A stretch of 64,000 bases of DNA from Rhodopseudomonas infernalis (GTDB taxonomy: Bacteria > Pseudomonadota > Alphaproteobacteria > Rhizobiales > Xanthobacteraceae), in the NCBI RefSeq assembly GCF_022271405.1, contig NZ_JAJNAL010000012.1, positions 62,001 to 126,000 of the forward strand, given 5' to 3'. Made by a program: the position numbers and the translations under genes. Under the pieces are notes generated by a model, which was given only the letters and a program-made list of their open reading frames with translations, was not told the origin of the DNA and ran no database searches. Shown here piece by piece: positions 61,099-64,000 of this stretch (position 1 is the first letter of the stretch; each line of letters begins with the position of its first letter).

Positions 61099-61272
61099 GT
61101 TTCCTCGACTTTTTTTGTCGTTGCAGCCAGCTTGCCGCCTGGGCCGCGCTTTGCCCAGCATTTTCTTGGCCAGCGCATAATTCAAACGGGGCGCGACCGA
61201 ACCGTGACCGCCACGAATTTTTCGCCGCGTGAAACGCCCACCTGCGATCCTCGTGAGGCCTGACATGCAAAA

Positions 61273-61298
61273 CGCCGCGGGCATTGCTGCCCGCGGCG
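61273..61298 (-). terminator. Terminator hairpin at the end of the puc operon
   Basis: CGCCGCGGGCA-TTGC-TGCCCGCGGCG: perfect 11-bp stem, 4-base loop, followed leftward by ttttgcatg. It lies 29 bases beyond the stop codon of the six-repeat protein and closes the pucC-repeat gene transcript. Confidence 0.85.
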
Positions 61299-61326
61299 CC
61301 TTGAGGCCTATCGACCGACGGCTGGC

Positions 61327-61617
61327 TCAGATGTTGAGCAGCAGCGGATAGCCGGAGAAGCTCTTGTACTCGCCTTCCTGCTTCAGCAGCAGCGGCGTGC
61401 CGGAGAACGACTGATACTCGCCCTCCTGCTTCAGGATCAGCGGCGTACCGGAATAGCTCTGGTACTCGCCCTTCTGCTCGAGGATCAGCGGCGTGCCGGA
61501 GAAGCTCTTGTATTCGCCTTCCTGCTTCAGCAGCAGCGGCGTGCCGGAATAGCCTTGGTACTCGCCCTTCTGCTCGAGAATCAGCGGAGTACCGGAGTTT
61601 CCTTTATATTCGCTCAT
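61327..61617 (-). CDS. Six-repeat antenna protein, probable LH2 gamma polypeptide
   Basis: A 96-residue protein that is nothing but six 16-residue repeats (units at 2-17, 18-33, 34-49, 50-65, 66-81, 82-96), consensus G-E-Y-[KQ]-S-[FY]-S-G-T-P-L-[LI]-L-[KE]-Q-[EK]. No signal peptide, no membrane helix, no His and no Cys. It ends the operon downstream of pucC, with ATG 61617 behind 'aaagga', eleven bases after the 220-residue repeat protein's stop. As I recall, cryo-EM of R. palustris LH2 found a gamma polypeptide forming an undulating ribbon around six of nine alpha-beta units and binding six extra bacteriochlorophylls; six repeats fit this one-to-one. The gene identity is my inference. With no His, pigment ligands would have to be other side chains or backbone. 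Confidence 0.75.
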   Translation of the reverse strand: MSEYKGNSGTPLILEQKGEYQGYSGTPLLLKQEGEYKSFSGTPLILEQKGEYQSYSGTPLILKQEGEYQSFSGTPLLLKQEGEYKSFSGYPLLLNI

Positions 61618-61628
61618 GATCAATTCCT

Positions 61629-62291
61629 TTACTTAGAGAGTACTGGCAGGCCCAGCCAGGAGGAGAAGATGGACGGATTGTTGATCAGCAGCGGTTCGCC
61701 CGAATAGGATTTGTACGGACCGCTGCTGTCCAGCAACAGGGGAGTCCCGGAAAAGGACTTGTAGGGGCCGCTGCTGTCGAGCAGCAACGGCGTTCCGGAG
61801 AACGACTGATATGGGCCCTTGCTGCTGATGACGAGCGGCGTACCCGAGAAGGTCTTGTCGCTGTCGACGAGCAGCCAGTCGCCGGAATAGGATTTGTACT
61901 TGCCCGAGGTGTCGAGCAGCGTGTCCAGATGCAGCATGTTCGAGAACGGCGTCGCCTCGCTCTGCCCGGCGGCGGCGGACGACGATGTCTCCACGCTGAT
62001 CTTGTTGGGGCCGTAGCTGTCGAGGATCTTGGTCGCCTTGGCGGCGAAGCCGAATTCGGCCTTCACGGCGACCACGACGGCGCCCTTCTTGACGTAGTCG
62101 GCATAGGTCCATGCATCGCTGCGCGCCACATAGGCCTTGGCGAGCGCGGCGACGATGTCGTCGACCGAACTCGATTTACCCGCCTGATAGCCGGTGACGA
62201 CGGAATACTGATAGTTGGCGTTCTTCAGGTCGGCTTCCAGCGCGGCGAGCTTGCTGCTGGAATCGTACAACCGGGTGACGATCTGGGTCAT
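61629..62291 (-). CDS. Two-part protein: soluble alpha/beta domain plus six gamma-like 16-residue repeats
   Basis: A 220-residue protein. Residues 1-100 form an alpha/beta domain with IVTRLYDSSSKLAALEADLK and GAVVVAVKAEFGFAAKATKI followed by LDSYGPNKISVE, in the style of YflT/general-stress-17M domains. Residues about 130-220 contain four good repeats (GKYKSYSGDWLLVDS; GPYQSFSGTPLLLDSS; GPYKSFSGTPLLLDSS; GPYKSYSGEPLLINNP) and two shorter ones (DKTFSGTPLVISSK; SIFSSWLGLPVLSK), six in all. The consensus is that of the 96-residue neighbour. Encoded 24 bases after pucC and 11 bases before the next ATG, so co-expressed with the antenna. A gamma-like antenna ribbon with an added domain, or a chaperone for gamma, are the candidate roles. 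I know of no description. Confidence 0.75.
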   Translation of the reverse strand: MTQIVTRLYDSSSKLAALEADLKNANYQYSVVTGYQAGKSSSVDDIVAALAKAYVARSDAWTYADYVKKGAVVVAVKAEFGFAAKATKILDSYGPNKISVETSSSAAAGQSEATPFSNMLHLDTLLDTSGKYKSYSGDWLLVDSDKTFSGTPLVISSKGPYQSFSGTPLLLDSSGPYKSFSGTPLLLDSSGPYKSYSGEPLLINNPSIFSSWLGLPVLSK

Positions 62292-62315: not shown

Positions 62316-63743
62316 TCAGGGCTGCGTGAGCTGGCCCTGCATCAGTAAGGTGTCCCGTCGCCTGATCAGCGGAACCATTGTGACGAGCGTCGCCAACAGC
62401 AGCAGCAGTTCGAGGCCGTAGACGAAATTGTAGCCGGCGGCGGGGCCGAGCTGCGGGGCGAGCGCGGTGACGACGTCGCGGAGGATGCCGCCGAGCGCGA
62501 TCGCGACGCCGGCCGCGGAGGCCTGTACCGCGCCCCAGGCGCCGAGCGCGAGCCCGGCCTGATCCTTCGGCGCGGCGTTCATGGTCGCCGTCAGCGTGCC
62601 GTGGCCGAACAGACCGGCGCCGAAACCGATCAGCAACGTGCCGCAGCCGAACATCAGGGCCGACGCGGCGCCTTGCAGTTCGGCCGCGAAGATCACCAGC
62701 AGGAAGGCCGGAATGCCCACCAGCGCGCCGGCGCTTGCCATCCGGAACGGATCGGCGCCGCGGCTCAGCACCCGCGAGGCGAGGCCGAAGCCGAACAGAC
62801 CGCCGACCGCAAGCGCCGCCGTGAGCTTGGTGGTGTCGCCGACCGACAGATGCAGGATCTGGCCGCCATAGGGCTCGAGCAGCACGTCTTCCATGCTGAA
62901 CGCCATGGTGCCGAAGCCGACCGCAATCAGCCGGCGGGTCGCGTCCTTGCCGGCGATGAAGGCATCCCACGATTCACGAAAGCCGGCCGCAGGTGCGCCG
63001 GGATGCGCGGTCGCGACCTCGCCGCCGGTGCGGCGGCGCGCTTCCATCTTCCAGGACGCGATGCCGTTGAGCACGATGGTGACCACCGCGGAGCCCTGGA
63101 TCACCTGGATGAGGCGCCCGGGCGAGAAGTCGGCGAGCAGCATGCCGAAGATGATCGCGCTCGCGATCATGCCGAACATCAGCATGGTGTACATCAGGCC
63201 GACGACCTTCGGCCTGGACTCGACAGATGCGAGGTCGGTGGCGAGCGCGAGGCCGACGGTCTGCGTCGTGTGCACGCCGGCGCCGATCAGCAGGAACGCC
63301 AGCGCGGCGCCGGCCTGACCGATCCACACCGGGGCGTGCCCCGCCTCGCCGCCGCCGGACAATACCAGCAGCGCGAACGGCAGAATCGCCAGACCGCCGA
63401 ACTGCACCAGCGTGCCCTTGTAGAGAAAGGGGACGCGGCGCCAGCCCAGCACGGATTTGTGGACGTCGGATTTGAAGCCGATCAGCGCGCGGAACGGCGC
63501 AAAGATCAAAGGCAGCGAAACCATGATGCCGACGATCGACGCCGGCACGCTCAGTTCGACGATCATCACGCGGTTAAGGGTGCCGACCAGCAGCACCAGC
63601 GACATACCGACCGCGACTTGAAATAGCGATAGGCGCAGCAAACGGGATAAAGGCAGATCCGGCGTCGCCGCATCCGCGAAAGGCAGAAAGCGAGGACCAA
63701 GCGAGGCCCAGACCTTCATCATCTTTTGGCTGACTGTGTTCAT
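62316..63743 (-). CDS. pucC: PucC-family light-harvesting complex assembly transporter
   Basis: A 475-residue MFS-type protein of the bacteriochlorophyll delivery (BCD/PucC/LhaA) family with twelve predicted membrane helices. Characteristic parts: LSRLLRLSLFQVAVGMSLVL, TLNRVMIVELSVPASIVGIM, PFRALIGFKSDVHKSVLGWR and KGTLVQFGGLAILPFALLVL in the N-half, MEDVLLEPYGGQILHLSVGD in the second half. It aids LH2 assembly in the inner membrane. It lies in the puc operon after the alpha polypeptide gene; its ATG overlaps the stop codon of a short upstream frame. Confidence 0.93.
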   Translation of the reverse strand: MNTVSQKMMKVWASLGPRFLPFADAATPDLPLSRLLRLSLFQVAVGMSLVLLVGTLNRVMIVELSVPASIVGIMVSLPLIFAPFRALIGFKSDVHKSVLGWRRVPFLYKGTLVQFGGLAILPFALLVLSGGGEAGHAPVWIGQAGAALAFLLIGAGVHTTQTVGLALATDLASVESRPKVVGLMYTMLMFGMIASAIIFGMLLADFSPGRLIQVIQGSAVVTIVLNGIASWKMEARRRTGGEVATAHPGAPAAGFRESWDAFIAGKDATRRLIAVGFGTMAFSMEDVLLEPYGGQILHLSVGDTTKLTAALAVGGLFGFGLASRVLSRGADPFRMASAGALVGIPAFLLVIFAAELQGAASALMFGCGTLLIGFGAGLFGHGTLTATMNAAPKDQAGLALGAWGAVQASAAGVAIALGGILRDVVTALAPQLGPAAGYNFVYGLELLLLLATLVTMVPLIRRRDTLLMQGQLTQP

Positions 63744-63892: not shown

Positions 63893-63916
63893 GACCGGGA
63901 CCCTTGGATCCCGGTC
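63893..63916 (-). promoter_or_regulatory. pucA-pucC intercistronic hairpin, distal
   Basis: GACCGGGA-CCCTTGGA-TCCCGGTC gives a perfect 8-bp stem. No T-run follows on the minus strand (gcttgctttg), so it is more likely an RNA stabiliser or attenuator than a full terminator. Such hairpins after pucBA keep the antenna mRNA segment abundant relative to pucC. Confidence 0.7.
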
Positions 63917-63944: not shown

Positions 63945-64000
63945 TCAGCCGATGGTGACCGAGCTCTCGATCGCCGCAGTCTTACCGTTCCAATACTTCG
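63945..64000 (-). CDS. pucA: LH2 alpha polypeptide, C-terminal end only
   Basis: Only the last 17 codons are in the window: KYWNGKTAAIESSVTIG, then TGA at 63945-63947. The KYWNG stretch is the usual periplasmic end of LH2 alpha polypeptides (..TTWFPKYWNG..), just after the single membrane helix that binds bacteriochlorophyll. pucC directly downstream supports this. The pucB gene and the promoter lie beyond position 64000. With several pucBA pairs in such genomes, the exact copy cannot be named. Confidence 0.85.
   Translation of the reverse strand, partial: KYWNGKTAAIESSVTIG

Follow-up and report, generated by a model that had tools for sequence, protein, structure and literature searches.

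The 96-residue repeat protein encoded on the minus strand at 61327..61617 of the window (the whole 64,000-nucleotide stretch of Rhodopseudomonas infernalis DNA that we analysed) is almost certainly LH2-gamma acting by its published mechanism, a reading of identity and mechanism to which we assign a probability of roughly 0.97. Directly upstream lies a gene for a second protein, gammaN, which carries the same ribbon repeat behind an N-terminal domain and belongs to an apparently undescribed family that is wider than Rhodopseudomonas and sits beside light-harvesting genes.

The gamma gene comprises 96 codons and a stop, preceded by a likely ribosome-binding site, AGGAA (61624..61628, minus strand), that can be read 6 nt 5′ of the ATG. 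An earlier, sequence-only reading of this DNA had claimed a histidine-free protein, 96 residues long and built from six 16-residue units, and the minus-strand ORF running from 61617 to 61327 confirmed each of these points, with six SG units spaced exactly 16 residues apart and a histidine count of zero. The repeats had also been called perfect, which held for their spacing but not for the units themselves, whose pairwise identity was 53–88%; in the DNA, TRF found a 48-bp period with 5.4 copies and 78% matches. Charged residues recurred in every unit as read from the sequence, in agreement with the claimed lack of a transmembrane helix. The strand had been left unstated, and the plus-strand frame at 61327-61617 does not encode the gamma protein. 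Gamma had been placed downstream of pucC, and pucC is indeed upstream but is not the next gene: the 220-codon gammaN gene lies in between, a second ribbon-repeat gene that had been overlooked.

We ran the proposed alignment to the deposited R. palustris gamma chain by comparing window gamma with PDB sequences (phmmer), which returned 7zcu_S, 'PucA-LH2-gamma', over residues 2–96 at E 8.8e-49; the identical sequence is present in 7zdi, 7ze3 and 7ze8. Window gamma shares with this solved chain (RPA1495) its length and its six 16-residue SG units, equals it at 79 of the 94 compared positions, and departs from it by substitutions only, except for one residue at the N terminus, a full-length homology that bears out the earlier assignment to the LH2 gamma ribbon. 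The gamma of locus L052, in a related genome, does not differ from the solved chain at any of the 95 residues printed for it, and there too gammaN is directly 5′ of gamma and the gene surroundings are as in the window. Of the 21 gammas that we collected, 17 were aligned (those left out being one four-unit and three short-spacing gammas), and the SG serine, the published Mg ligand, was invariant at all six sites in every one of them. Because these 17 gammas aligned over their full length and the solved chain matched so strongly, chance can be excluded. A merely repetitive protein unrelated to LH2, a reading to which we give next to no weight, is ruled out by the 7zcu_S match, and the serine invariance and the gene surroundings also speak against it.

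Much of what gamma does has been described for its R. palustris orthologue. PMC9618040 names the R. palustris protein RPA1495, reports gamma from Rhodopseudomonas only, and shows it to be a physical part of LH2 that encloses six of the nine alpha-beta units and brings six additional BChl near 800 nm, with a serine as Mg ligand in each repeat; the expectations of a ligand other than histidine and of one repeat per pigment both agree with this account. By the same mechanism, window gamma would wind around the LH2 nonamer at its cytoplasmic rim, where the SG serine of every unit would hold an additional BChl a. A protein of the gamma kind, marked 'gamma(?)', is also listed for a low-light LH2 preparation in PMC9897067. 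Given the match to the solved chain and the 2022 paper (PMC9618040), window gamma by itself is already known.

Gamma is the last gene of a pucB-pucA-pucC-gammaN-gamma cluster that is probably an operon. Only the 3′ part of pucA, encoding LH2 alpha, falls within the window (63945..64000, minus strand; best PDB chain 7ze8_A, E 2.1e-32); the gene extends past the window edge, beyond which lie pucB and then a divergent gene that, going by its sequence, we take to be bacteriophytochrome-like. The 475-residue MFS protein encoded at 62316..63743 (minus strand), which had only a weak transporter match under the NCBIfam cut-off, is presumably PucC, a name that we base on the position of its gene downstream of pucBA and on the usual make-up of puc operons. 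The same five-gene order had 21 occurrences spread over 20 loci, most of which adjoin a phytochrome-like gene, and two further loci (L041 and L051) had pucBA and gammaN, with neither pucC nor gamma in the stretch. On the 3′ side of gamma, a strong inverted repeat (61268..61303, minus strand), with 16-nt arms that are 88% complementary around a 4-nt loop, is a possible operon terminator; its last arm, read on the minus strand, finishes with GTTTTG, and the repeat was absent from the list of our terminator scan. That scan, whose total of three matches was about the shuffled mean of 2.9, included a terminator-like hairpin between pucA and pucC (63893..63916, minus strand).

The gammaN gene (61629..62291, minus strand; 220 amino acids) begins 24 nt after pucC and ends 11 nt before gamma. 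Residues 1 to ~100 form a predicted alpha/beta domain, the N-domain, and the tail has five SG units between an FSN unit and a terminal FSSWLGLPVL unit, so that gammaN differs from LH2-gamma in having an N-domain and five SG units with two variant units rather than six SG units alone. A ribbon repeat confined to the gamma gene is thereby ruled out; a gamma query found gammaN in its own genome at E 3.2e-25. The five SG units were invariant in all 23 Rhodopseudomonas-type gammaN proteins, flanked by FSN-like and FSSWLGLPVL-like units, the latter not in L041 and L051. AlphaFold2 models of 14 sequences gave residues 1–100 an alpha/beta fold with a block pLDDT of 73–89 and gave the tail values below 50, as would be expected of a ribbon that becomes ordered only on its partner. 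A Foldseek search of the PDB returned no match to the N-domain fold at E ≤ 0.001, the best being NDP kinase at E 0.031, and with no clear fold relative there we read no function from the fold. Profiles A3 and A4 likewise retrieved no gammaN from the PDB, only gamma and one chance-level A3 match. In Pfam and NCBIfam, the proteins that we scanned had no more than weak matches. Among them was the YflT (general stress protein 17M) domain PF11181: the N-domains of four of the 22 members matched it weakly at E up to 1, the best value being 0.0014, and the other 18, window gammaN included, had no match at that threshold, so we rejected window gammaN as a member of that family. In the open-access literature, a scope that excludes preprints, we found no printed description of gammaN and no occurrence of RPA1494, which we guess to be its tag; RPA1495 does occur there, in one paper.

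Relatives of gammaN that are puc-linked and unaccompanied by gamma were present in 34 further genomes from 24 genera and 18 families. In the family-level search with gammaN, 21 of 391 genomes had a match, 19 of them in three gamma-bearing genera, and the two outside (G140 and G331) carried the relative next to pucBA. At the order level, profile A1, built from Rhodopseudomonas gammaN only, matched 60 of 397 genomes at E ≤ 0.01; among the 17 other genomes whose neighbourhoods were covered (42 weaker A1 matches were left out), the homologue adjoined pucBA in 15, the exceptions being G688 and G444, and checking revealed puc-adjacent homologues that A1 had missed in G449 and G485 (genus g59). At the class level, profile A3 matched 29 of 385 genomes at E ≤ 1e-4, with the homologue adjoining pucBA in 10 of the 13 other genomes covered (all at E ≤ 3.5e-14; 15 matches were left out) and not in the remaining three. 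At the phylum level, profile A4 matched 8 of 378 genomes at E ≤ 1e-6, five of which were new, and the homologue lay beside pucBA in all five. Its position varied: it followed pucC, lay between pucA and pucC, or occupied the opposite strand, where it was divergent from pucBA in L129, L175, L203 and L204 and convergent in L169. Plasmid records held no match for a protein of family f74 and one weak haloarchaeal match for gammaN. Gamma proper looks restricted to Rhodopseudomonas within reach of the three short patterns with which we scanned 84,980 species genomes, since all 14 loci recovered belong to that group; some genomes of the gammaN family search are absent from the scan's listing.

LHC-domain matches were found in 77 of the 397 order-level genomes, and a puc-adjacent homologue was present in 17 of the 23 that had four or more of them, G449 and G485 being among these 17. 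The seven puc loci of four genomes of genus g77 had no gammaN-like gene at E < 0.1 (the check covered these loci rather than all LHC pairs, with G414 and G643 outside the neighbourhood check), implying that LH2 can do without gammaN, at least beside LH2 genes. Conversely, 14 relatives of the N-domain (A4, E ≤ 1e-6) had no puc gene within 4.5 kb. The genome of the window itself encodes two N-domain proteins with degenerate tails on other contigs (L133:6106-6669 on C34 and L134:6031-6558 on C6), also with no puc gene within 4.5 kb, and unlinked N-domain genes in L049, L054, L056, L057 and L060 stand amid genes that, by eye, do not look photosynthetic.

The tails of these relatives preserve the register of gamma. 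We measured residue identity at fixed lags in tails from outside Rhodopseudomonas (29 tails in all, with 21 as genus representatives) and compared it with that of shuffled tails. In the 21 representatives, identity was 0.180 at lag 16 (0.083 in shuffles, z 15.7) and 0.188 at lag 32 (0.084 in shuffles, z 16.9), values reached by none of 200 shuffles, and there was no excess at lags 13 and 17 (z –1.6 and 1.3). These z values are inflated because the shuffles ignore kinship between tails, and lag 16 had been suggested by gamma, with multiples of 16 already seen in counts of tail motifs (174, versus 13.8 in shuffles, for patterns fitted by eye to the sequences). Six f74 tails from three genera lacked the 16-residue period (z 1.4 at lag 16), and lag 25 ranked highest in them. 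Among the six f74 proteins, a puc-linked one of 345 residues (L194:7066-8178) has, by eye, roughly seven repeats of 25 residues (RMANWPIPLISRRKP), apparently the product of a separate repeat expansion.

A puc-linked family with a 16-residue register, detected in pooled tails from 21 of the 24 further genera, is a likely origin of gamma. In a tree of 46 chosen N-domains, the 10 puc-linked rows from Rhodopseudomonas formed one fork (95/88), which together with the f74 rows and 13 others made up a 29-row fork (90/84); seven unlinked rows fell outside that fork, and ten class- and order-level puc rows stood apart. We infer that the SG units arose once, in the tail of a Rhodopseudomonas gammaN, and that gamma quite probably arose in the same lineage as a copy of that tail lacking the N-domain.

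Six SG units characterized 20 of the 21 gammas, the exception being L038, where a gamma gene with only four (L038:6569-6766) stands beside a longer relative. In the gammas of L053, L055 and L058 the spacing was mixed between 13 and 16 residues, with 13-residue steps in most places and SG units still numbering six, which suggests that the number of units matters more than length. The longer relative, 145 residues, is encoded in four genomes (L036:3077-3511, L038:6076-6510, L044:9168-9602 and L061:225-659) and comprises eight SG units, counted by eye, and a terminal FSS unit; three of its genes lie in puc clusters and the fourth, in L061, at a contig edge. R. pseudopalustris DSM 123 has the nine-unit gene in its sequence record (L077). 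The nine units of this form are as many as the alpha-beta units of the LH2 ring, and we predict that it encircles the nine-fold ring. According to PMC9618040, which states that the reason for gamma's partial coverage of the ring is unclear, a Phe/Met pair is linked to the blue-shifted 803-nm PucD complex, the order of the two residues differing between text and figure legend. The alpha beside the nine-unit gene has Phe-Met in L036 and L038 and Tyr-Met in L044 (window alpha has Tyr-Trp), and judged by these residues the alphas of the nine-unit clusters belong to the low-light PucD type or come close to it.

We infer the whole of gammaN's function. As a relative of gamma that joins a small alpha/beta domain to a tail with gamma's 16-residue unit, it would act at the LH2 ring, whether by being one of its subunits or by helping PucC in assembly or pigment loading, and gammaN-type proteins of other puc loci would lay their periodic tails along the ring; we put the chance that gammaN tails contact the ring at about even. 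A role in assembly, with the N-domain acting alongside PucC while the tail transiently holds BChl or the nascent ring, falls slightly short of even odds. It is suggested by the place of gammaN directly after pucC in the window and by its modelled two-part architecture, and PMC9618040 describes an extra band of ~10 kDa, and not gammaN, on the SDS-PAGE gel of LH2 purified from R. palustris. In view of that band, it is not evident that R. palustris LH2 includes gammaN as a stable subunit. The tail unit, however, is shared with a proven structural ribbon and fits stable binding equally well, and in some other genomes the homologue is flanked by pucA and pucC or is encoded on the opposite strand. 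Somewhat less probably, some LH2 forms, such as low-light complexes, contain gammaN as a second ribbon subunit that binds BChl through its SG serines. The invariance of its five SG sites argues for this possibility, as do the alpha genes, Phe-Met or Tyr-Met, that accompany both the gammaN variants of L041 and L051 and the nine-unit gammas of L036, L038 and L044, but the published model of PucD-LH2 from R. palustris has gamma as its sole ribbon (PMC9618040). On account of the ~10 kDa band, we prefer the role in assembly and pigment loading.

These roles bear comparison with a second system. Rhodobacter capsulatus PucDE is a puc-operon protein that co-purifies with LH2, and we regard it as a toss-up whether gammaN is its counterpart. 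The R. capsulatus table in PMC5359404 contains pucB, pucA and pucC2 together with a gene printed as 'pudCE', which is listed after pucC as gammaN is in the window and as its homologues are in L191-L195; pucDE is also named as a photosystem gene in further literature. This likeness is one of gene order (the open-access literature yielded no usable PucE or PucD sequence), and, unlike PucDE, the homologues of L128, L131, L167, L168 and others lie between pucA and pucC.

Taken jointly, these observations could be read to mean that LH2 of many alphaproteobacteria has a 16-residue-repeat ribbon anchored by an N-domain, in which the gammaN-family ribbon would space serine-bearing units along the alpha-beta pairs, gamma would be a stripped-down pigment-binding form, and the 145-residue form would enclose the whole ring with up to nine BChl; as a whole we consider this reading tentative and rather unlikely. 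Within the scope of our literature searches, the gammaN gene and its puc-linked family are new. The 16-residue register of that family suggests an overlooked component of LH2, its place beside light-harvesting genes suggests that such ribbons may be common, and the natural nine-unit version makes the question of ring coverage testable.
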